Source of the DNA: Gammaproteobacteria bacterium
GTDB lineage: Bacteria; Pseudomonadota; Gammaproteobacteria; Porifericomitales; Porifericomitaceae
NCBI GenBank assembly: GCA_014238615.1
Contig: JABAAT010000048.1
Location: 1 to 53,385 of the forward strand
Reading direction: 5' to 3'
Length of the DNA stretch: 53,385 nt
A program made the translations under genes and the position numbers. This document shows positions 21,802-48,953 of this stretch, piece after piece. The notes under the pieces were generated by a model. That model saw only the letters and a program-made list of their open reading frames with translations. It was not told the DNA's origin and did not search any database. Position 1 is the stretch's first letter; each line of letters opens with the position of its first letter.

Positions 21802-23781
21802 TCAGGATTCATCCGGGGATTTATCCGAATCTTTCTTTACTTCGCGGTACTCCGCATCCACCACTTCCTGGACCGCCTCGCCCTCGGTGTCGGCGGCCTG
21901 CTGCTCTCCGGAGTCTGGAGAAACGGACGACTCCGAACCATTCCCAGCCGCCGCGGCGGCCTGCTGCGGGGGCTGCAGCTTCTGGGCCAACTTCATGCAA
22001 AGTTCGCCGAGTTCCCGACTTGAGTCTTCGATCTTTTGCCTGTCCTTGGAACGCAAGGCTTCCTCCAGGCCGCCCGCGGCCTTCTCCATCTCTTCCTTGT
22101 CTGCGACCGCGACCTTGTCACCGGCCTCCCGCAGCTGCTTGCGTGCTCCGTAGAGGATGGTATCCGCGCTGTTACAGAGTTGCACCAGTTCAAGCGCCTG
22201 GCGATCCTCCTCGGCATATTTTTCGGCATCCCCCACCATGCGCTGAATCTCCTCTTCAGCCAGACCGCTGGAAGCACGGATCTCAAGACGTTGTTCCTGC
22301 CCGGTGTCCTTATCCCTGGCGGAGACCTTGAGGATGCCGTTCGCGTCAATATCAAAGCTGACCTGCACCTGCGGCATGCCGCGTGGCGCCTGGCGGATCC
22401 CGGTCAGGTCAAACTGCCCGAGGGAGCGATTATCCTTAGACAACTCGCGCTCCCCCTGTAGGATGTGCACGGTGACCCGGGACTGATTGTCCTCCGCGGT
22501 CGTAAAAGTCTGTTCGGCGCGGGTCGGGATGGTGGTGTTCTTGCTGATCAGCTTGGTCATGATGCCGCCCTGGGTTTCCACGCCCAGGGACAAAGGCGTC
22601 ACGTCCAACAGCAGGATATCCTTCACCTCGCCGCCCAGCACACCGCCCTGCAGGGCTGCGCCGACCGCCACCGCCTCGTCCGGATTCACATCGCGCCGCG
22701 GTTCCCGGCCGAAAAATTCCTGCACCTTCTCCTGCACCTTGGGCATCCGGGTCTGGCCGCCCACCAGGAGCACGTGGGAGATGTCCGACACTTCCAGCTT
22801 CGCGTCCCGCAGCGCGATGCGGCAGGGTTCCAGGGAGCGCTCCACCAAGTCCTCGACCAGGGACTCCAGGCGCGCGCGCGTGAAGCGCATGTTCAGGTGC
22901 TTCGGCCCCGAAGCGTCGGCCGTGATATAAGGCAAATTGATATCCAGCTGCTGGCTGGAAGACAACTCGATCTTGGCCTTCTCCGCCTCATCCTTGAGGC
23001 GCTGCAGGGCCAGCGGATCATTCTTCAGATCGATGCCCTGCTCTTTCTGGAACTCCTCGCACAGGCAGTCGATGATGCGTAGATCAAAGTCTTCGCCGCC
23101 GAGGAACGTGTCACCGTTCGTGGCCAGCACCTCGAACTGTTGCTCGCCGCTCACATCCGCGATTTCAATGATGGAAACATCGAAAGTCCCGCCGCCCAGG
23201 TCATACACCGCGATCTTGCTGCTGCCCGCCTGCTTCTTATCCAGGCCGAAAGCCAAGGCGGCCGCGGTCGGCTCGTTGATAATGCGCTTCACTTCCAGAC
23301 CGGCGATACGCCCGGCGTCCTTGGTCGCCTGGCGCTGCGAGTCATTAAAGTAAGCTGGCACCGTGATCACGGCCTCCGTGACCGTCTCCCCCAGGTAATC
23401 CTCGGCGGTCTGCTTCATCTTCATCAGTATGCGCGCGGAGACCTCCGGCGGAGCCATGCTTTTGCCGCGTGCTTCAATCCAGGCGGCGCCGCTCTCCGCC
23501 TTGACGATGCTGTACGGCACCATCTTGATGTCGCGCTGCACCACCTCGTCATCGAAACGCCGGCCGACCAGGCGCTTCACCGCGAACAGGGTGTTCTTGG
23601 GATTGCTGACCGCCTGGCGCTTAGCCGCCTGCCCGACCAATACCTCGTCATCGCTGTAGGCGACCACGGACGGTGTGGTGCGCGAGCCCTCGTTGTTCTC
23701 CAGCACGCGGGGAGAGGAACCCTCCAACACCGCGACACAGGAATTCGTGGTGCCCAGATCAATGCCGATAATTTTTCCCAT
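21802..23781 (-). CDS. dnaK: Chaperone protein DnaK (Hsp70)
   Basis: 659 aa. The N-terminal ATPase domain starts [17 protein letters not shown] and contains [15 protein letters not shown] and [11 protein letters not shown]. The substrate-binding domain starts near [14 protein letters not shown], and the helical lid is followed by a Gln/Ala-rich tail ending in acidic residues ([12 protein letters not shown]). It lies between grpE and dnaJ, with 68 and 35 bp gaps. Slightly longer than the E. coli protein because of the tail. Confidence 0.98.
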
Positions 23782-28716: not shown

Positions 28717-29172
28717 TCAGTCCCGGGGACGCTGCTTGCGCGGTCGCACGTGGAGCACCAGGCTGTGATCCACCAGGTCGTAGCCGTGCCTGGCCGCGGT
28801 CTCGAGCAACAGCTTCTCAATGAGCTCGTTCTGAAACTCCACCACCGTGCCGGTATCCATGCAAATCATGTGGTCGTGGTGCGCGCCATCGTCCAACTCG
28901 AAGAGCGCCTGGCGCGCACCGAAACGCTGGCGAATCACCAGCCCCGCCGCCTCAAACTGGGTCAGAACTCGGTAGATAGTTGCGATTCCGACCTTCTCTC
29001 CCTTCTTCAGCAGTTCCTGGTGCACGCCAACGGCGCTTAAATGTTTGTGCCGACCTTTTTGCTCTAGAATCCTTAGAATATGCGTACGCGGCATGGTCGC
29101 CTTCAGGCCGACCCGCTTCAGCGAACCCACCCGGGAAGCGTTCCCGGAACCCGGTAAATCAGCATCCGACAT
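28717..29172 (-). CDS. fur: Ferric uptake regulator Fur
   Basis: 151 aa. N-terminal winged helix with ATIYRVLTQFEAAGLV, then the metal-binding domain with AHHDHMICMDTG. The HHDH motif (98-101) is present. Of the CxxC structural zinc pair only the first Cys remains (C104; T107 in the second position), so this belongs to the Fur type with an incomplete CxxC, as known in Pseudomonas. A preceding 20-residue N-terminal extension (SDADLPGSGNASRVGSL) is longer than usual. AGGAA lies upstream of the ATG at 29172. It is divergent from bamE, the conserved fur/omlA arrangement. Confidence 0.94.
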   Translation of the reverse strand: MSDADLPGSGNASRVGSLKRVGLKATMPRTHILRILEQKGRHKHLSAVGVHQELLKKGEKVGIATIYRVLTQFEAAGLVIRQRFGARQALFELDDGAHHDHMICMDTGTVVEFQNELIEKLLLETAARHGYDLVDHSLVLHVRPRKQRPRD

Positions 29173-38327: not shown

Positions 38328-39459
38328 GTATTGTCTCCTGTTCCCGCCGCATCGAAGCGACGGTGAGTTGACCACAGGCCGCCGCGATGGAATCCCCCCG
38401 GGTTCTGCGCAGGGTGGTCTGGTAACCGCGCCGCTGCAGGACGCGCTGGAAGCTTTCCAGAACGGCGGGCGGGCTGCGGCGATAAGCGGCGCCCGGAAAG
38501 GAATTGAAAGGAATCAGGTTGATCTTAGCTGGCAGGCCGTGCAACAGTTCGGCGACCTCACGGGCGTCCCGCGGGCTGTCGTTGACTCCATCCAACATGG
38601 TGTATTCAAAGGTCACGGAATCACCAGCGCGGGCCTGCGCGTAGTCACGGCAGGCCGGGATGAGGCGCTCCAGCGGATAACTGCGGTTCAACGGCACCAA
38701 GCGATCGCGCAGCTCATTACGGGCGGCGTGCAGAGAAACGGCCAAGGCGCAACTTCGCAGCGGATTGCGGTCCGCGGCGAGGCGCCGGATGCCGGGCACC
38801 ACGCCGGCGGTGCTGAGCGTAACACGACGCCGCGCCAGTCCATAAAAGCAATCGTCACGCAGCAGGCTGATAACCGATAACACCGCGTCCAGGTTCAGCA
38901 GCGGCTCCCCCATGCCCATCATCACCACATTGCTGATGGGTCCCGGGACACGCCCGAAAGCATCCAGCTCGCGCAGCACCAGCCAAAACTGGCCGATGAT
39001 CTCACCGACACTCAGGTTGCGGGTGAACCCTTGCCGCCCGGTGGCGCAAAAGTCGCAGCGCAGGGGGCAGCCGGCCTGCGTGGACAGGCACAGCGTGGTG
39101 CGCGCGGGCCCGGGAATCAGCACCGTCTCCACGACGGCGCCGTCAGACAACGACACCCGCCATTTACGCACCCCGTCCTCCGCCTCGCGCACCTCGGCCG
39201 GAACCGGCGGCTCCAGGCAGACCGTCTCCCGCAGGCGGCTCCGCAATTCCTTGCCGAGGTTGGTCATCTCGTCAAACTCCAGGACGCCGCGGCGGTGCAC
39301 CCAGTGCAGCACCTGCTGCGCGCGGAAGCCGGCCGCCCCCAACTCCATGAAATAAGCGCTGAGAGCCGGCAGATCGTAATCCAGCAGGTTGGGCGGCCGC
39401 GCGGGCGCGGCAGAGCGCGGCACCGTCTCAGCGGGCTTGTCAGCGTGGATGGAGTTCAT
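38320..39459 (-). CDS. rlmN: Dual-specificity 23S rRNA/tRNA adenine-C2 methyltransferase RlmN
   Basis: 379 aa radical SAM enzyme, methylating 23S rRNA A2503 and tRNA A37. The [4Fe-4S] motif CPLRCDFC is at C131, C135 and C138, with the auxiliary TTLCLS upstream. [10 protein letters not shown] and VSLHA binding segments are present, and the catalytic C-terminal Cys is in [10 protein letters not shown]. The start is set at [12 protein letters not shown], overlapping the end of ndk by 20 bases; longer in-frame starts lie inside ndk. Confidence 0.96.
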
Positions 39460-39880
39460 GTTGCTTGAAGAAAAAAGGTATCTCGGCACGCGCGGTCTCG
39501 AGCTGATCCGAACCATGCAAGGCGTTTTCATACAGGGCACCGCTGTGGCGGGCGCCGGAAAAATCCGCGCGCAGGGTACCGGGGGCGGCCTTCAGGGGAT
39601 TCGTTTTGCCAATCAGTTTGCGATAGTCGTTGATGGCGTCTTCCCCGCTCAGCACCTGCACCACCACCGGCCCGGAACTCATGAAGGACACCAGCGGCTC
39701 GTAGAAGCTCCTGCCACGGTGTACGGCATAGAACTCCTCGGCTCGTGACTTGCTCAGCCACAGCATTTTCAAGGCAATGATGCGCATTCCCCGCTCTTCG
39801 ATGCGGGTGTTGATGCGCCCAATATAGTTACGGCTAACCGCATCCGGCTTGATAATGCAGAGTGTCTGTTCCATGGCCAT
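39440..39880 (-). CDS. ndk: Nucleoside diphosphate kinase
   Basis: 146 aa. [18 protein letters not shown] at the N-terminus and the active-site His in ENALHGSD (H122). It has about three extra residues before the His motif compared with E. coli Ndk, and a short C-terminal tail (KQHELHPR). Start alternatives are 39880 (chosen), 39874 and 39889. It leads the ndk-rlmN-pilF-hisS-yfgM-bamB-der series; a TATAAT lies about 100 bases upstream. Confidence 0.96.
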
Positions 39881-39976
39881 GTCGAACAATCGGGGCGCGG
39901 CGACGCGGGGGAGGGTTTTCTGGGGGACTTTTTAAGGCAGGTGGGACGGAGCCGAGCGAGAGCTTAACCGCACAAG

Positions 39977-39982
39977 ATTATA
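39977..39982 (-). promoter_or_regulatory. Candidate -10 box for ndk
   Basis: A perfect TATAAT on the minus strand (minus-strand context GGATATAATCTT) stands out in GC-rich sequence about 97 bases before the ndk start. The hexamer 17 bases upstream is not a good -35, so the assignment is tentative. Confidence 0.35.
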
Positions 39983-40099
39983 TCCAATCACCACCGTAAC
40001 GCACACGGAGTCGCCGGCCGCGGAATTTTCCAACCGACGAGGACCTCACCGGGGATGGTTTCCGGAACGCGTCTCCGGGAGAGTGGCGTGCACCTCGGC

Positions 40100-40453
40100 T
40101 CAATCCGGCAGGGGACTGCTCCCCACCTGCACCCTGCCGTCCAGAACCCGCACAGGGTGGCGCACCAGGGGATCATAGGCCGGGGGGGTGAGGGCTTCAC
40201 CGGTGCGTATGCAAAAGCGCGCACCGTGTCTCGGGCAGATCAGCTCCCCGCCGTCCAGCACCTCCTCCAGGGCCAGGCCATAGCCAAGCAGGGGGGATTC
40301 TTCATGCGTACAGACATCCTCCACGGCGTAATAGTCACCGTCCAGATTGAACACGGCCACGGCCACGGTCGGAGTCTCCACCAGCCGCGCCTGACCGCTG
40401 CCGAATTCCGCCGCCGCCGCGACATCCAGCCATTGCGACGTCTCGGCGCTCAT
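40100..40453 (-). CDS. Rieske-type [2Fe-2S] ferredoxin
   Basis: 117 aa without signal peptide, so cytoplasmic. The cluster ligands are C48 and H50 in VCTHEESPL and C73 and H76 in CPRHGARF, with the usual spacing for a Rieske ferredoxin. It may pass electrons to the SUF machinery or an oxygenase. The ATG overlaps the sufT stop (ATGA). It is the promoter-distal gene of the suf operon, and related Rieske proteins are found at SUF loci in Xanthomonas-type bacteria. Confidence 0.9.
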   Translation of the reverse strand: MSAETSQWLDVAAAAEFGSGQARLVETPTVAVAVFNLDGDYYAVEDVCTHEESPLLGYGLALEEVLDGGELICPRHGARFCIRTGEALTPPAYDPLVRHPVRVLDGRVQVGSSPLPD

Positions 40454-41067
40454 AAAAAACCGGTCTCCAGGAGCGCCGCCTCGGACATGCGGCTGCGATC
40501 CCAGGGCGGCTCAAAAGTCAGTTCCACGTCCACCCGTGTGACATTCGGCACCTCCGCCACCCGCGAGCGCACATCCGCCGCCAGAAATTCACCCATGCCG
40601 CAACCGGGTGCGGTCAGGGTCATGACGATCCGCACCTGGTTGCCGCCCTTCTCCAGGGGCGATACCCGGCACTCGTAGATCAGGCCGAGATCCACAATGT
40701 TAATGGGGATTTCCGGGTCATAGCAGGTACGCATCTGCTCCCAGATCAGCGCTTCATCCACAGCGCCGCCGCCCGGCTCGGCGCTTTTCCCGGAGCCCGC
40801 CTCCCCGCCCGCCTCGGTCCCCTGCGATGCGGATTTCAGGCGCGCCGCCGCCTCGGGCACCTCAAGGCCCAACGCATCCGCGTCCGCGCCGTCAATGCGG
40901 GCCAGGTTGCCGCTCACGTTCACGGTGAAGCTGCCGCCCAATGCCTGGGTCACAAAGACCACCGCGCCGGCCGGCAACAGCAGCGGTGTGCCGATCGGGA
41001 TCAAGTGCGCCTGGCATTCGCGCTCCAGGGTGATGGGGGTATTCGGATCGATGGGGTCGTCAGTCAT
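40450..41067 (-). CDS. sufT: Fe-S cluster assembly protein SufT (DUF59/MIP18 family)
   Basis: 205 aa. An N-terminal segment (LIPIGTPLLLPAGAVVFVTQALGGSFTV) is typical of the long SufT form. After a low-complexity Gly/Glu linker comes the DUF59 domain: MRTCYDPEIPINIVDLGLIYE and MTLTAPGCGMGEFLAADV with its conserved Cys, ending in FEPPWDRSRMSEAA. It assists maturation of Fe-S proteins in other bacteria. It lies 70 bases after sufU and is coupled to the Rieske gene. Confidence 0.93.
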   Translation of the reverse strand: MTDDPIDPNTPITLERECQAHLIPIGTPLLLPAGAVVFVTQALGGSFTVNVSGNLARIDGADADALGLEVPEAAARLKSASQGTEAGGEAGSGKSAEPGGGAVDEALIWEQMRTCYDPEIPINIVDLGLIYECRVSPLEKGGNQVRIVMTLTAPGCGMGEFLAADVRSRVAEVPNVTRVDVELTFEPPWDRSRMSEAALLETGFL

Positions 41068-41137
41068 GAGGTAAACCCGTGTTCAATTTCTCGTGGTGAA
41101 AGGTCGCCTGTATCCGTGCGTTCCCGGTGATCCCGCG

Positions 41138-41581
41138 TTACTCGGTACTGACATTCCGCTCACCGCCGTTCAGCGCCGCCTTCAGGGTGTGCCAACAGAG
41201 GGTGGCGCATTTCACCCGCCCTGGAAATTTGCGCACTCCGGCCAGCGCCTCCAGCTTGCCCAGTTCCGGGCTGGCCTCGGCAGCGGGGTCAGTCACGCGT
41301 TTCAGGAAACGCTCCAGCAAGGTGCAGGCCGCACGCAATTCCAGGCCCTGGACCGCCTCACTCATGAGGGAAGCGGAGGCGGTGGAGATGGCGCAGCCCT
41401 GGCCTTCAAAGCGCATCTCACTGATACGTTCCCGCTCCAGGCGCAGGGTGAGGAGAAGATCATCGCCGCACAGGGGATTGTGCCCCTCGGCACTGCGGTC
41501 CGCGGGTTCCAGGCGCCCGAAATTGCGCGGGTGGCGGTTGTGGTCGATCACCACCTCCTGGTAAAGGGATTCAAGATCCAT
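41138..41581 (-). CDS. sufU: SUF system scaffold / sulfur-relay protein SufU
   Basis: 147 aa. C38 and D40 in NPLCGDD, C63 in GQGCAIS and C125 in RVKCATLCWH match the SufU/IscU zinc or cluster ligands. The 18-21-residue insertion before the last cysteine (DPAAEASPELGKLEALAGVRKFPG, in part) is characteristic of SufU rather than IscU. In Firmicutes SufU takes sulfur from SufS; no sufE is in this operon, so the same is likely here. It follows sufS by 18 bases. Confidence 0.93.
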   Translation of the reverse strand: MDLESLYQEVVIDHNRHPRNFGRLEPADRSAEGHNPLCGDDLLLTLRLERERISEMRFEGQGCAISTASASLMSEAVQGLELRAACTLLERFLKRVTDPAAEASPELGKLEALAGVRKFPGRVKCATLCWHTLKAALNGGERNVSTE

Positions 41582-41599
41582 GGAACGCCACTCGAAACC

Positions 41600-42850
<1,251 letters not shown>

Positions 42851-42858
42851 GTCATTGC

Positions 42859-44211
42859 TCAGGCGATACCCAACGCCCCGGACGACAGACCGCCTCCGGG
42901 GACGTGGCGCTCCAGCCAATCCTGCAAGTCGGGAAAACGGAAGCGCTCCATCGCCTCGGCGGCGAACGCGCGCACCAGAAGCGCGCGCGCGCGCACGGCG
43001 TCCAGGCCGCGGCTCTGCAGGTAGGCGGCGGAGGCATCGTCCAGGCGGCCGACCGTGGCACCATGCCGGCACTGCACTTCGTCGGCGTGAATGTGCAACT
43101 CCGGACGGGTATAAGCGCGGCTGCGCTCCCCAATTAACAGGTTGGCGTTGCTCTGTGTCGCCTCGCTGTGCGCAGCATGCTCCTCGATGTGTACCGCGCC
43201 ATGGAAAATTCCGTGCGCCGCACCATACAGGATGCCCCGGTAAAAGGCATCGCCCCGGGTCTCCCGCTGCAGATGCCGCACCATCGCAAGACAGGCATGG
43301 CGCCCGTTCCCGGCGGCGCTGTAAAGGCCGTTTAGTTCGGCGCGCGCCGCGCGCCCCAGCAGCCTCACCTGCAACTCGTTGCGCGCCAGCGCCTCGGTGC
43401 GCCCGAAGTAGCAAGAGTGCAAGTGCGCCCGCGTCCCCAGTTGCGCGCAGGAATAGCTGAGATGTGCGGCGGCGTCACAGCGCAGCAACTTGCAGTGCCG
43501 TAGCTCGGCCGCATCCTCGAGACGCAGCTGGGTCACGCTGTTCACCAGGGATTTCGGAGCTCCGCTCCCGGGCGCGGCCGCCGAACTGTAACTTTCATAG
43601 ACGCACGCGGCCGCGCCGCGCCCAAGCAGGCAAAGATTACGCACATGCGCACAACGCGGCGGTCCCCCGGCCGCCGCCTCCGGCTCCAGGTGCCACACGT
43701 GCACGGGGCGCTCTAAGCGCACGCCGTCCGGCACCCGCAGAAACAGTCCGCTGTTAAACAGGGCCGTGTTCAGGGCGCTGAAGCCCGCGTCGGCGCCACC
43801 TTCGACAAACGGCAGATCATCCAGCGCCTGGGCCAGGATCTCATCACGACCAGCGTCCAGCACTTGGCAAAGAGGTGCCAACCGCACCCCCGGCGGCAAT
43901 GCGCCGACGCGTGAGCGCGCGGCACAATAGTGCCCGCCCACAAAGACCAATACATCATGCTCCCGTCCTTCCAGCGGCGCGTCCGGCAAAACCGGCGGAG
44001 CCGCGACGGGCACGGCGGCAGGCTCCAGTTCCAGGCGCAACCAGGCACGCGGATCGGTGTAACGCCAGCCTTCCAGTTCCGGACCCGGGAAACCGGCCTC
44101 CTGGAAATACCGGAAGGCAGTGGCGCGGCGCTCGCGAAACCAGGCACCCGGCAACCGGCGATGCAATGCCTGGAACGCCCGATCGAACGCCTGCAGGGCG
44201 GGAGCGCTCAA
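42859..44211 (-). CDS. sufD: Fe-S cluster assembly scaffold SufD
   Basis: 450 aa. The SufB/SufD beta-helix core is recognisable by the C-terminal stretch SNANLLIGERSRAYTRPELHIHADEVQCRHGATVGRLDDASAAYLQSRGL (in part), and by RFRFPDLQDWL at the end. The N-terminal helical domain includes GWRYTDPRAWLRLEL. It forms the SufBC2D scaffold complex with SufB and SufC. Its start overlaps sufC (ATGA). Confidence 0.96.
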   Translation of the reverse strand: MSAPALQAFDRAFQALHRRLPGAWFRERRATAFRYFQEAGFPGPELEGWRYTDPRAWLRLELEPAAVPVAAPPVLPDAPLEGREHDVLVFVGGHYCAARSRVGALPPGVRLAPLCQVLDAGRDEILAQALDDLPFVEGGADAGFSALNTALFNSGLFLRVPDGVRLERPVHVWHLEPEAAAGGPPRCAHVRNLCLLGRGAAACVYESYSSAAAPGSGAPKSLVNSVTQLRLEDAAELRHCKLLRCDAAAHLSYSCAQLGTRAHLHSCYFGRTEALARNELQVRLLGRAARAELNGLYSAAGNGRHACLAMVRHLQRETRGDAFYRGILYGAAHGIFHGAVHIEEHAAHSEATQSNANLLIGERSRAYTRPELHIHADEVQCRHGATVGRLDDASAAYLQSRGLDAVRARALLVRAFAAEAMERFRFPDLQDWLERHVPGGGLSSGALGIA

Positions 44212-44978
44212 GCGACGCTGCCGACGTCCACGGACGCCTCCTCCTCGAGTTGCTCGTAACCCTGTTCCTCCACGGCACGGGCCAATTCAGGCCCCCCGGA
44301 ACACAGGATGCGCCCGTTGCTCAGGATATGGACCCGGTCCGGCTCAACATGTTGCAGCAGGCGCTGATAATGCGTGATCAGCAGGAAAGATCGCCCGGGC
44401 GTGCGCAGGGCGTTGATGCCCTCTGCGACAATGCGCAAGGCATCCACGTCCAAACCGGAATCGGTCTCGTCCAGGATCGCCAGCCGCGGTTCCAGTACGG
44501 CCATCTGCAGGATCTCGTTGCGCTTCTTTTCACCCCCCGAAAAACCCTCGTTCACCCCGCGCCGCAGTAGCTCCTCCGGCATCCGCACGAACCGCCCCCG
44601 CTTCCGCACCAGGGCAAGAAACTCCACCGCGTCCAAGGGCTTCTCGGAACGCCGCAAACGCAAGGCGTTGAGCGCTTCCTTGAGCAACTGCAGGTTGCTG
44701 ATGCCCGGGATCTCCACGGGATACTGGAATCCCAGGAACAGCCCGGCGGCGGCCCGCTCCTCCGGTTCCATGGATAACAGGTCAACACCGCGAAGCTGCG
44801 CTTGCCCGGAGCGCACCGTGTACCCCGGCATGCCGGCCAGGACGTGCGCCAAGGTGCTTTTGCCCGAGCCGTTCGGCCCCATCACCGCATGCACCTCACC
44901 GGCGCCGACCTCCAGGTCAACGCCGCGCAGGATGAGTTGCTCACCCACCGCGACCTGCAGCTGCCGTATTTCGATCAT
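44208..44978 (-). CDS. sufC: SUF ATPase SufC
   Basis: 256 aa ABC ATPase of the SufBC2D scaffold, cytoplasmic. Walker A is MGPNGSGKST (about residues 33-42), Q-loop FLGFQYPVEIPGI, signature GFSGGEKKRNEILQM, Walker B LAILDETDSGLDVDALR and the H-loop LITHYQRLL. All are intact. It lies 30 bases after sufB and overlaps sufD. Confidence 0.98.
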   Translation of the reverse strand: MIEIRQLQVAVGEQLILRGVDLEVGAGEVHAVMGPNGSGKSTLAHVLAGMPGYTVRSGQAQLRGVDLLSMEPEERAAAGLFLGFQYPVEIPGISNLQLLKEALNALRLRRSEKPLDAVEFLALVRKRGRFVRMPEELLRRGVNEGFSGGEKKRNEILQMAVLEPRLAILDETDSGLDVDALRIVAEGINALRTPGRSFLLITHYQRLLQHVEPDRVHILSNGRILCSGGPELARAVEEQGYEQLEEEASVDVGSVA

Positions 44979-45008
44979 GTCCAGTAAACCACCCCGGTAA
45001 AACCCGGA

Positions 45009-46454
45009 CTAACCCAACGCACCTTCCAGGGTGACGGCCAGCAACTTGCGCGCCTCCACCGCAAACTCCATCGGCAGCTCCTTGATCACCTGCTTGCAGA
45101 ACCCGCTGACGATGAGGTTCACCGCCTCCTCTTCGGAAAGCCCGCGCTGACGGCAGTAATACAGTTGATCCTCGGCAATCCGAGATGTGCTCGCCTCATG
45201 CTCCACGCACCCGCTGGGATGCTGCACTTCCACGTAGGGCATGGTATGCGCACTGCAGCCCTTGTTCATGAGCAGCGAATCGCAGCAGCTGTAATTGCGG
45301 GCGTTGCGGGCGCGCGGCCCCATGCGCACCAGGCCCCGATAGGCGTTGCTGCCGTGCCCGGCGCTGACGCCCTTGGAAATGATGGTGCTGGTGGTGTCCG
45401 GGCCGATATGCACCATCTTGGTGCCGGTGTCAGCCTGCTGATAATTCCGCGTCACCGCGATGGAATAAAACTTACCACTGCTACCGGCGCCGCGCAGCAC
45501 ACAGCTGGGGTACTTCCAGGTGATGGCGGAGCCGGTTTCCACCTGCGTCCAGGAGATACGCGAACGACGTCCCCGGCACTCCCCGCGCTTGGTGACGAAG
45601 TTATAGATGCCGCCGACGCCGTTGGCATCCCCCGGATACCAGTTCTGCACCGTGGAGTACTTGATCTCAGCGTCATCCAGGGCAACCAGTTCCACCACCG
45701 CGGCGTGCAGCTGATTCTCATCCCGCATGGGAGCGGTGCAGCCCTCCAGGTAACTCACCCAGCCGCCGTCTTCCACGACGATCAGGGTGCGTTCAAACTG
45801 TCCGGTATTCGAAGCGTTGATGCGGAAATAGGTGGACAATTCCATGGGACAACGCACACCCGCCGGCACGAAACAGAAGGAACCGTCGGTGAACACCGCG
45901 GAATTCAGCGCAGCGAAAAAATTATCCCCGGGCGGCACCACGGTCCCCAGGTAACGCCGCACCAACTCCGGGTGTTCACGCACCGCGTCCGAAAAGGAAC
46001 CGAAGATCACCCCTGCCTCGGCCAATGTCTTCTTAAAGGTAGTGGCGACCGAAACGCTGTCAAACACCGCATCCACCGCCACGCCGCTCAGGAGCTTTTG
46101 TTCGTGCAGGGGAATGCCCAGCTTCTCGTAGGTCTCAAGCAGCTTGGGATCCACCTCATCCAGGCTGCTCGGACCCTCCCGGGTGCGCGGCGCCGAATAA
46201 TAGGAGATGGCCTGGTAGTCGATGGGTTGATAACGCAACGCGGCCCAGCGCGGCTCGCGCATTTTCAGCCAACCGTGATAGGCGCGCAGGCGCCATTCCA
46301 ACAACCACTCCGGCTCCTCCTTGCGCGCCGAGATGCGGCGGATGATCTCTTCGCTGAGACCGGGCGGCGCGGTATCCGCTTCAATGTCGGTGTAAAAACC
46401 GGCCGCGTAATCCTTGCGCAGCACATTTTCCAGTTCTTCAGCCTGCTGCGCCAT
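45009..46454 (-). CDS. sufB: Fe-S cluster assembly scaffold SufB
   Basis: 481 aa. The N-terminus is [17 protein letters not shown], followed by [65 protein letters not shown] and [20 protein letters not shown]. The cysteines and the Glu/His patch used in cluster assembly are retained. The start at [12 protein letters not shown] overlaps the sufA end by 17 bases; a longer open frame reads into sufA and is not used. Confidence 0.97.
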
Positions 46455-46845
46455 CACCCTGCTCCTCTGCAACATCCGCCGCCGGGGCCTGCTCCACGGC
46501 GAAACTCTGCCCGCAACCACAGGTCGCGGTGACGTTCGGATTATTGAACTTCAGGCTGGCATTCAGCCCTTCCCGCACGTAGTCAATCTCGGTGCCAACC
46601 AGCATCAGCAGGCTCTCACGATCCACGATCAGGGTCACACCGTTACTCTGGAAAACCTCGTCCCCCTCGCGCGGCGCCTGTGCGGCCTCCAGATGATAAC
46701 GGTACCCGGAGCAGCCGCTGCCGCGCACACCGACGCGCAAACCGCGGCCCTTCTCACGACGCAAACGCTCCAGCACGTGACGCGCGGCCGCGGGGGTGAC
46801 GGAAAGGGCGGCCGCGGGGGTGACGGAAAGGGAAGCGGCTGTCAT
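46438..46845 (-). CDS. sufA: A-type Fe-S carrier, SufA/IscA family
   Basis: 135 aa. C45 in GSGCSGY and C109 and C111 in ATCGCGQSF are the three conserved cysteines. The N-terminus contains an eight-residue duplication, SVTPAAAL then SVTPAAAR, from a 24-bp tandem duplication; the second copy is the native helix start of the family (ITPAAAxH-like). A 20-residue acidic Ala-rich tail extends past the usual C-terminus. It starts four bases inside iscR (ATGA) and is translationally coupled to it. Confidence 0.93.
46784..46832. repeat. 24-bp tandem duplication in sufA
   Basis: A 24-base unit beginning CGGCCGCGGGGGTGAC is repeated head to tail. In the sufA frame it duplicates SVTPAAA near the N-terminus. 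Confidence 0.93.
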
Positions 46846-47375
46846 GATGTCTCCAGGGAGTAAGGCGGCCCGTCCGAAGACTTACCTGCCAAAGATTTAC
46901 CTGCCAAAGCATTCGATCCCTTCCCCCGGCGATACAGCGCGACCGGCACCGACCCCCCGGCCGCCGGCCGCCCCCAATGCCCGGCGCATAACTGCGCGAG
47001 GCTAACGCTGCCGAGGAAGGCATTAATCACCTTGCTCAGCCCTTCCCACAGGTTGTGGGTCAGGCAGGGCGAAGAGCCCATGCAGTTGCGGCGCCCCCCG
47101 CAGCGGGTGGCGTCCGTCCCCTCATGCACCGCATCGATCACATCAGCTACCGAGATCTCACGCGGCGCGCGCGCCAGCAGGTATCCCCCACCGGGACCCC
47201 GGCTGGACTCCACCAGGCCGGCCCGGCGCAACCGGCCGAAGAGCTGCTCCAGGTAGTTACAGGAAATATCGAGCCGGGTGCTGATGTCCCGCAGGCGCAC
47301 CGGCCCCTCCTCCTGATGCAGGCTCAGGTCAAGCATCGATCCGACCGCATAACGGCCCTTGGTTGTCAAGCGCAT
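46842..47375 (-). CDS. iscR: Rrf2-family iron-sulfur regulator IscR
   Basis: 177 aa. The winged helix includes [19 protein letters not shown] and [19 protein letters not shown] with [13 protein letters not shown]. The cluster ligands C92, C98, C104 and H107 ([17 protein letters not shown]) have the same numbering as E. coli IscR, which is firm support for a [2Fe-2S]-binding IscR rather than the cluster-less SufR type. The C-terminal tail carries a 15-bp tandem duplication ([10 protein letters not shown]). It is the first gene of the suf operon, under a promoter that overlaps an IscR site, so negative autoregulation is likely. Confidence 0.95.
46880..46910. repeat. 15-bp tandem duplication in the iscR 3' end
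   Basis: CTTACCTGCCAAAGA followed by TTTACCTGCCAAAGC encodes LAGKS twice in the C-terminal tail of IscR. Confidence 0.9.
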
Positions 47376-47484
47376 AACACTCAGTTCACTCAGTACAAAC
47401 GGTCAACAGGCACTCCCCCCAACGAGCGGCGCCAGACCCGACGGCTGACGGCCCCGTAGAGCTTGAATCCATCAGTAGCAAGGC

Positions 47485-47513
47485 AATGTAGCATAACTTA
47501 TTAAAATAGTCAA
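47485..47513 (-). promoter_or_regulatory. Promoter of the iscR-suf operon
   Basis: On the minus strand TTGACT (47513-47508) and TACATT (47490-47485) form a -35/-10 pair with an exact 17-base spacer. Transcription should start near 47478, giving a leader of about 100 bases before the iscR ATG. The -35 lies inside the IscR box described next. Confidence 0.85.
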
Positions 47514-47517
47514 GTAT
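47493..47517 (-). promoter_or_regulatory. Type 1 IscR binding site overlapping the iscR-suf promoter
   Basis: Read on the minus strand the site starts ATACTTGACT, has the AT core ATTTT and ends AATAAGTTAT. By eye it matches 22 of 25 positions of the E. coli type 1 consensus (ATASYYGACT core and the inverted half). It covers the -35 and spacer, so holo-IscR bound here would block RNA polymerase, as at the E. coli isc promoter. Confidence 0.88.
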
Positions 47518-47829
47518 ATTTTTTGGGCCCCCTGCCTTCCCGCAATCCGGTTGTTGCTTTTCTACAACAAAATGCCTGGGGACTGCCCATCCCACGCGAA
47601 AGACCCCTCTATCTGGGCAAGCCTCCCCGTCAAGAAGACAGTTTAAAACTGAAGTTCCAGGTTTCCGGCTGCATAGACACATGCATAGACACGGGGCGGC
47701 ATATGGCCGCTGCTCGTTATATGGCCTTACCCGGCTGACAAGTGGATTGACCCGCTCGCCGTACCTGCTCCAGGCTGGAGCGACCCGTGTCGCGACAGGC
47801 AGGCCGGAGCAGCGGGAACAGCGGCGGGA
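47518..47829. other. Gene-free region between the iscR-suf promoter and dsbB
   Basis: 312 bp. It contains two small inverted repeats (TTGTTG/CAACAA at 47551-47570 and CAGTTT/AAACTG at 47639-47651), a 12-bp tandem duplication at 47671-47694 and a second direct repeat of CATATGGCC-like sequence near 47700-47725. A plus-strand frame at 47523-47738 has no ribosome binding site or recognisable family and is not called. No clear terminator for dsbB was identified. Confidence 0.55.
47671..47694. repeat. 12-bp tandem duplication upstream of iscR
   Basis: GCATAGACACAT is followed directly by GCATAGACACGG. Confidence 0.9.
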
Positions 47830-48330
47830 TCAGCGGCGGGCGGAGGCGCGCAGCGCAGCGACAAAAAGCAGCAGGGCCGCGACGCAAAACATGGCAAACC
47901 AGAGCAGGGCCCAGGCCGGGATGCTGAGACCAAGAAAGCTCCATTGCACCTCACCGCATTCTCCCGAGGCGGTGAAGGCGCGACGTACGGCGTCGAAGTG
48001 GTAGGTATCCCACATATACACCCAACCCGGGCCGCAGGCCGTTTTTTCTTCCTCGGGCAGAAGCTGCATGCGCACCTGCCAGGCAGCCACGGCGCCGCCA
48101 GCCAGGGCGGCCAGAAAGACCAGGGCGCTGTAGATGCAGACCCCCAGGCGCTCCGGGCGATGCAAGGCGCCGGCCAGGCCGATACACAGCAACACCGCCA
48201 TGGCCATGCGCTGCAGCATGCACAGCGGGCAGGGTTCCAGGCCCAGTCGGTGCTCCAGGAAAAAGCCGAAGCCAAGCAACCCGGCGCAAATCAAGGTCAG
48301 CCCGATGAAGAAGTGGGTTTTCCAACGCAT
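47830..48330 (-). CDS. dsbB: Disulfide bond formation protein DsbB
   Basis: 166 aa inner-membrane protein with four hydrophobic helices. The first redox pair is C34-C37 (PCPLCMLQR) and the second C99 and C125 (TACGPGW, SGECGE). It reoxidises DsbA and passes electrons to quinone. The start at 48330 is preceded by GGGAAG five bases upstream; an ATG six codons earlier (48348) has a weaker site. Its 5' end faces the tRNA cluster and it may share a transcript with it. Confidence 0.94.
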   Translation of the reverse strand: MRWKTHFFIGLTLICAGLLGFGFFLEHRLGLEPCPLCMLQRMAMAVLLCIGLAGALHRPERLGVCIYSALVFLAALAGGAVAAWQVRMQLLPEEEKTACGPGWVYMWDTYHFDAVRRAFTASGECGEVQWSFLGLSIPAWALLWFAMFCVAALLLFVAALRASARR

Positions 48331-48450
48331 GAGGTCTTCCCAGCGCATGATTTTCAGTCTCCAGAATGTACGCGCGAGCGCGGGGTGCTGTCCGGGATAA
48401 GGCCGGAACCACCTCGACCGTACTGGCGCACCCATGGGGGGAGAGGGGTC

Positions 48451-48527
48451 TGGTGGGCCGTACAGGAATCGAACCTGTAACCTTGGGATTAAGAGTCCCC
48501 TGCTCTACCGAATTGAGCTAACGGCCC
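48451..48527 (-). tRNA. tRNA-Lys (anticodon CTT)
   Basis: Cloverleaf with acceptor GGGCCGT paired to ACGGCCC, TTCGATTC T-loop, anticodon loop CTCTTAA and an encoded CCA end. The CTT anticodon reads AAG codons. Confidence 0.95.
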
Positions 48528-48562
48528 GCGCTCCAGCCACGTCGCTCCGGGGGCCGGTGCTT

Positions 48563-48640
48563 TGGGGTGAGTGATGGGACTCGAACCCACGACCTCCGGA
48601 GCCACAGTCCGGAGCTCTAACCAGCTGAGCTACACTCACC
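48563..48640 (-). tRNA. tRNA-His (anticodon GTG)
   Basis: Acceptor GTGAGTG paired with CACTCAC, the extra 5' G (G-1) opposite C73 that marks tRNA-His, anticodon loop CTGTGGC, TTCGAGTC T-loop and an encoded CCA. Confidence 0.96.
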
Positions 48641-48779
48641 ATGGGATGGACACCCCCTTGGGCGGGAGGCCTCCGCCGACGGAGGCACCGCGTTTCCAGG
48701 CACCCTCCTCCGCGCGGCTTCATCCTGAAGGACCGGGTGGGGGTCCAAGTGGACCCACCATAGCGATCACCCGGGGCAA

Positions 48780-48857
48780 TGGCACGCCCGGCAGGACTCG
48801 AACCTGCAACCCTCGGCTTAGAAGGCCGATGCTCTGATCCAGTTGAGCTACGGGCGC
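48780..48857 (-). tRNA. tRNA-Arg (anticodon TCT)
   Basis: Acceptor GCGCCCG pairs with CGGGCGT, with a G-U pair at the end. Anticodon loop is CTTCTAA within the stem TCGGC/GCCGA. TTCGAGTC T-loop and encoded CCA are present. Confidence 0.95.
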
Positions 48858-48876
48858 CCGGGGGGAGCCCTTTCAT

Positions 48877-48953
48877 TGGTCGGGGCAGGGGGATTTGAAC
48901 CCCCGACCTCCTGCTCCCAAAGCAGGTGCGCTACCAAGCTGCGCTATGCCCCG
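48877..48953 (-). tRNA. tRNA-Pro (anticodon TGG)
   Basis: Acceptor CGGGGCA paired with TGCCCCG, D-arm GCGCAGCTTGGTAGCGC, anticodon loop TTTGGGA, TTCAAATC T-loop and encoded CCA. It is the first gene of a Pro-Arg-His-Lys array on the minus strand. Confidence 0.96.

Follow-up and report, generated by a model that had tools for sequence, protein, structure and literature searches.

A type 1 IscR box at the head of the iscR-suf operon in a gammaproteobacterium that appears to make iron-sulfur clusters by SUF alone

The textbook account of IscR control derives from E. coli, an organism with two cluster machineries, and IscR of Thermincola potens is said to have been the subject of work in 2014. 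Most bacteria have a single iron-sulfur (Fe-S) cluster machinery, usually SUF (PMC11559095, in part). The E. coli iscRSUA operon shares with the locus described here a type 1 box at the iscR promoter, four cluster ligands in the regulator and the regulator gene in first position; it differs in that here suf genes follow, one box is present instead of several, and IscS was not detected (PMC12594620 and PMC8593673, both in part). According to PMC8561392 and PMC8593673 (both in part), IscR represses every promoter known to have a type 1 site, and oxidation of the cluster weakens type 1 binding too (PMC12594620). In Caulobacter crescentus, which likewise has a single machinery and an operon of suf genes headed by iscR, IscR binds over the −35 element and represses with iron, a behavior that would be expected at the present locus too; Caulobacter is, however, an alphaproteobacterium with iscS before sufB, a different operator motif and a different spacing of the ligand residues (sections of PMC11475020). 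Rhodobacter sphaeroides IscR is also a cluster-bound repressor encoded first in an isc-suf operon, but it uses single-cysteine ligation and a 19-bp Iron-Rhodo box (PMC4618611, in part), and Myxococcus xanthus RisR, an Rrf2 regulator whose holo form represses suf, differs in its cluster and its DNA sites and represses both isc and suf (PMC9973013, in part). Among acidophiles, iscR lies beside sufBCDSU, and IscR control has been proposed for acidophilic Actinobacteria and Firmicutes in a set that includes one proteobacterial case, Acidicaldus; this control was predicted from gene content, and the parts of that paper considered here describe no operator (PMC9628965). The kind of control that we propose below is already known, with Caulobacter, Rhodobacter and Myxococcus RisR as close precedents. 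Our literature search found no report of a type 1 box before suf in a SUF-only gammaproteobacterium, which is weak evidence of absence, with RegPrecise and most subscription journals outside its scope.

We analyzed a 53,385-nucleotide stretch of DNA from a gammaproteobacterial draft genome (hereafter the window), whose minus strand carries a co-directional run of genes in the order iscR-sufABCDSU-sufT-Rieske with gaps of at most 70 bp. The first gene, iscR (46842-47375, 177 aa), overlaps by four bases with sufA (46438-46845), which encodes an A-type carrier that passed the TIGR00049 subfamily cut-off and neither the IscA nor the SufA equivalog cut-off. Next come sufB (45009-46520 as listed among the open reading frames and backed by a profile match, its true start probably internal, near 46454), sufC (44208-44978), sufD (42859-44211; 196.4, below the NCBIfam cut-off of 222), sufS (41600-42850, which passed the SufS subfamily cut-off), sufU (41138-41581) and sufT (40450-41067), with sufC, sufU and sufT assigned by profile matches. 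A Rieske-type ferredoxin-like gene (40100-40453), which matched ferredoxin-subunit models, all below cut-off, ends the closely spaced run. Terminator-like sites on the operon strand were fewer than expected by chance (3 found, 2 of them within sufS, versus a shuffle mean of 8.0).

The draft genome, which is 99.27% complete, contains one SufB, and IscS gave no matches at E up to 1e-60. HscA profiles matched three places genome-wide, none above cut-off, and the best of these (window 21979-23769) is probably DnaK. With SufB present, and IscS and HscA absent at these thresholds from a draft of this completeness, the organism appears to make Fe-S clusters by SUF alone. Two Fur-family matches were also found in the genome, one a gene in the window (28753-29112) and the other on contig C4.

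The initial annotation had placed a type 1 IscR site on the minus strand at 47517-47493 and counted 22 of 25 consensus positions, and our recount gave the same result: the site, ATACTTGACTATTTTAATAAGTTAT, differs at positions 17, 19 and 22 from ATASYYGACTRWWWYAGTCRRSTAT, which we take to be the 25-bp type 1 IscR consensus. These positions are among the more variable ones in 92 natural sites (consensus agreement 48, 71 and 66%, respectively), and the right half-site of the box is degenerate. The box lies in a local AT-rich patch of a window that is 65% GC. The runner-up non-overlapping match in the window reached 18/25; in 60 samples drawn from a first-order Markov model of the window (one strand), matches of at least 20 averaged 0.03 and matches of at least 21 did not occur, and none of 20,000 samples of the 225-bp local stretch (one strand, the stretch including the site itself) reached 21/25. 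At up to three mismatches the box is the sole place in the 1,666,869-base draft genome, with 0 for the reversed-pattern control. A looser pattern gave five extra places with two to three mismatches, compared to one match per strand for the reversed control; the best of these extra sites, on contig C12, falls inside a long open frame and was taken as chance. A second, tandem type 1 site was sought in the promoter, where the best candidate scored 17/25 and overlapped the box.

A scan with a type 1 matrix, for which the initial annotation had called, returned a score of 39.8 for the box, compared to 2.5 for the next unrelated window position, 14.7 for the best of 100 Markov windows and 23.8 for the best among 3,000 local samples. 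The matrix was trained on 59 distinct sites from isc-type iscR promoters, excluding suf loci; these training sites were chosen by consensus (at least 19/25), so the matrix and the consensus are not fully independent.

The box covers the −35 hexamer TTGACT (47508-47513, minus strand), and a 17-base spacer leads to the −10 hexamer TACATT (47485-47490, minus strand), which is preceded by TG as in an extended −10, confirming the arrangement that the initial annotation had given. The gene directly behind this promoter is iscR itself, which precedes suf. The promoter is the one promoter-like site in 47376-47830 (shuffles mean 0.1) and the only promoter-like pair on the operon strand across 39400-48900, where sigma-70-like patterns were scanned. 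Among the 92 loci whose box reaches 19/25 (window included), 64 have a −10 element matching at 4/6 or better at spacers of 16-18 and 17 have one at spacers of 26-28, indicating that the −10 stands at a fixed distance from the box in most of them. Transcription is predicted to start near 47478, which would leave a 5′ leader of about 103 nt (47376-47478, minus strand). The gap between box and ATG, 117 nt, is long compared to the other loci (median 44 over 92 loci, longer in 4/92). Folding of the leader was nothing unusual (z = 0.61), and Rfam models did not match the leader at E up to 1; all Rfam matches in 46300-48900 lie beyond 48450, three of them sub-threshold and three of them tRNA genes, which are on the minus strand in the vicinity of dsbB (48454-48527, 48566-48639 and 48783-48857). 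A search of the operon strand with a type 2 IscR consensus gave at best 7/9 fixed positions at 47702-47679, more than 160 bp upstream of the box, and a type 2 site at the promoter itself, as at E. coli suf, was not found. The best Fur match in 47376-47829 was weak (10/19 to the consensus, one strand). An inverted repeat, TTGTTG-8-CAACAA, lies on the minus strand at 47551-47570, in the intergenic stretch that follows dsbB and upstream of the promoter of iscR.

The regulator carries the ligand motif C-X5-C-X5-C-X2-H at residues 92-107 (C92, C98, C104 and H107) and also E43 (YLEQL), the residue that in E. coli discriminates between type 1 and type 2 sites. Its best NCBIfam match is the IscR equivalog TIGR02010, at 179.8 bits versus a cut-off of 207.55; because this cut-off is missed, we name the protein IscR by its ligands, context and operator. 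Solved structures of E. coli IscR match it with a best E of 2e-39, and it is the sole clear IscR found in the genome, the other match (E 4e-4) lying inside a 577-residue open frame. Residue 40 is N here and S in 102 of the 110 IscRs examined, and residues 39-40 are C-N, compared to L-S in 97 of the 110. Residue 40 is listed among the residues for type 2 DNA binding (PMC11475020, in part). The C-N pair and the degenerate right half of the box may possibly have changed together.

We compared the locus with 110 iscR loci, made up of the 30 best-matching from 56 genomes (the window among them) and the best 80 of at least 587, a sample of the closer IscRs that is not exhaustive. By context, 17 of these loci have sufB nearby, 87 have an isc-type desulfurase and 6 are unassignable. 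A box of at least 19/25 occurs in all 17 IscR-headed suf loci (a number that includes the window and two near-identical loci of the same genus, L024 and L025), in 72 of the 87 iscR-isc loci and in 3 of the 6 unassigned ones. Ten of the 17 suf loci read iscR-sufA-sufB, two read iscR-sufB, and in five iscR and sufB are separated by an IscS/SufS-like gene, the same arrangement as in Caulobacter. Genomes of the same family and others in the class again show both the box and this gene order, with the box at the same place in three same-family genomes (21, 24 and 24/25 in G001, G002 and G003). In the 56-genome sample, 19 genomes have SufB without an IscS match, and 7 of these have an IscR gene beside sufB; the pattern of up to three mismatches occurs in 5 of the 7 IscR-suf genomes examined for it, always as one site, and not in G001 (21/25) or G011 (19/25). 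As a negative control we used 18 suf operons from genomes of the same class, each with a distant Rrf2 match next to sufB (L121-L138), leaving aside suf operons beside no Rrf2 match. A matrix score of at least 15 (uniform background) was reached by none of these 18 operons (highest 12.5), by all 17 IscR-headed suf loci and by 77 of the 87 isc loci, most of which are the training set; the plain consensus count reached 19/25 in 2 of the 18 control operons. This comparison errs on the conservative side, since both strands of the control operons were scanned and most of the stretches taken from them exceeded the others in length, at 901 bases (a single stretch, at a contig end, had 450).

Taken together, the matrix score, the sole clear IscR, its ligands, the conservation of the box and the absence of matrix matches in the control operons support the initial annotation in reading SUF as probably under cluster-dependent repression. 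We consider it very probable that this site is the operator through which IscR controls its own promoter and that it mediates feedback by holo-IscR on the whole iscR-suf operon. In this mechanism, [2Fe-2S]-IscR would bind the box and block RNA polymerase at the −35 element and spacer; when clusters are scarce, apo-IscR would leave the box, and its departure would permit expression of the whole iscR-sufABCDSU-sufT-Rieske operon, presumably from a single transcript. The E. coli isc feedback loop would thus operate with SUF, the sole machinery detected in the genome, in place of ISC, and the SUF operon as a whole would most likely respond to demand by feedback. The initial annotation had also set the locus against E. 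coli, where type 1 sites control isc and apo-IscR activates suf through a type 2 site. A type 1 box does stand at this suf operon, although the contrast is smaller than it sounds because the box belongs to the autoregulatory promoter of iscR, with suf in the position that isc takes at other loci. The points that count against the overall reading are the missed TIGR02010 cut-off, the strict pattern in 5 of 7 genomes, N40, the degenerate right half-site and the two terminator-like sites in sufS.

In Caulobacter, an iscR mutant showed increased iscS and unchanged suf mRNA levels (PMC11475020, in part), a warning that the iscR promoter does not always dictate suf mRNA levels. By extension, IscR might here mainly repress its own gene, with suf expression set by an internal promoter, mRNA processing, Fur or oxidative stress. 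Such a division of control would also suit the two Fur-family matches and the two terminator-like sites inside sufS, but we regard it as unlikely: the genes are closely spaced, the operon strand offers no second promoter-like site among the sigma-70-like patterns scanned, the best Fur match near the promoter on the one strand scanned is poor, and terminator-like sites are rarer than in the shuffles. Activation by apo-IscR from this site, as at the E. coli suf promoter, is less probable still and would be a surprise. Many E. coli type 2 sites overlap the −35 element as the box does (PMC8561392, in part); against this, the box is of type 1, the one strand scanned for type 2 sites has its best match more than 160 bp upstream, a good −35 with an extended −10 would hardly need an activator, and the known type 1 promoters described in the same source are all repressed. 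Chance resemblance of an AT-rich promoter patch in a GC-rich window to the consensus is negligibly probable and in effect refuted, given that the 20,000 locally matched samples yielded no 21/25 match, that the 3,000 local samples peaked well below the score of the box, and that a box stands at the same place before iscR in relatives, including other genera.

The history of the linkage between iscR and suf offers a lead. On the IscR tree (110 rows), the suf label requires 9 changes (bootstrap 8-12), and well-supported branches force at least two of these changes. Clustering of the label exceeds what chance would give (a mean of 16.1 after shuffling, with 0/500 shuffles as low), so the linkage is in part due to shared descent; because the tree has few columns and long branches, with the window row among the long ones, we treat this as a lead and not a result. 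It is about an even bet that iscR with its type 1 promoter forms a portable feedback module in gammaproteobacteria, repeatedly placed before isc, suf or an iscS-suf hybrid, whichever the cell depends on, with the operator retained through changes of the machinery.

The best reading of the locus remains ordinary negative autoregulation by holo-IscR, with suf replacing isc, which would make it a largely expected variation. It shows a probable route by which a SUF-only gammaproteobacterium may adjust its sole machinery, namely simple demand feedback through an E. coli-type operator, and E. coli-style stress induction of SUF should therefore not be assumed there.
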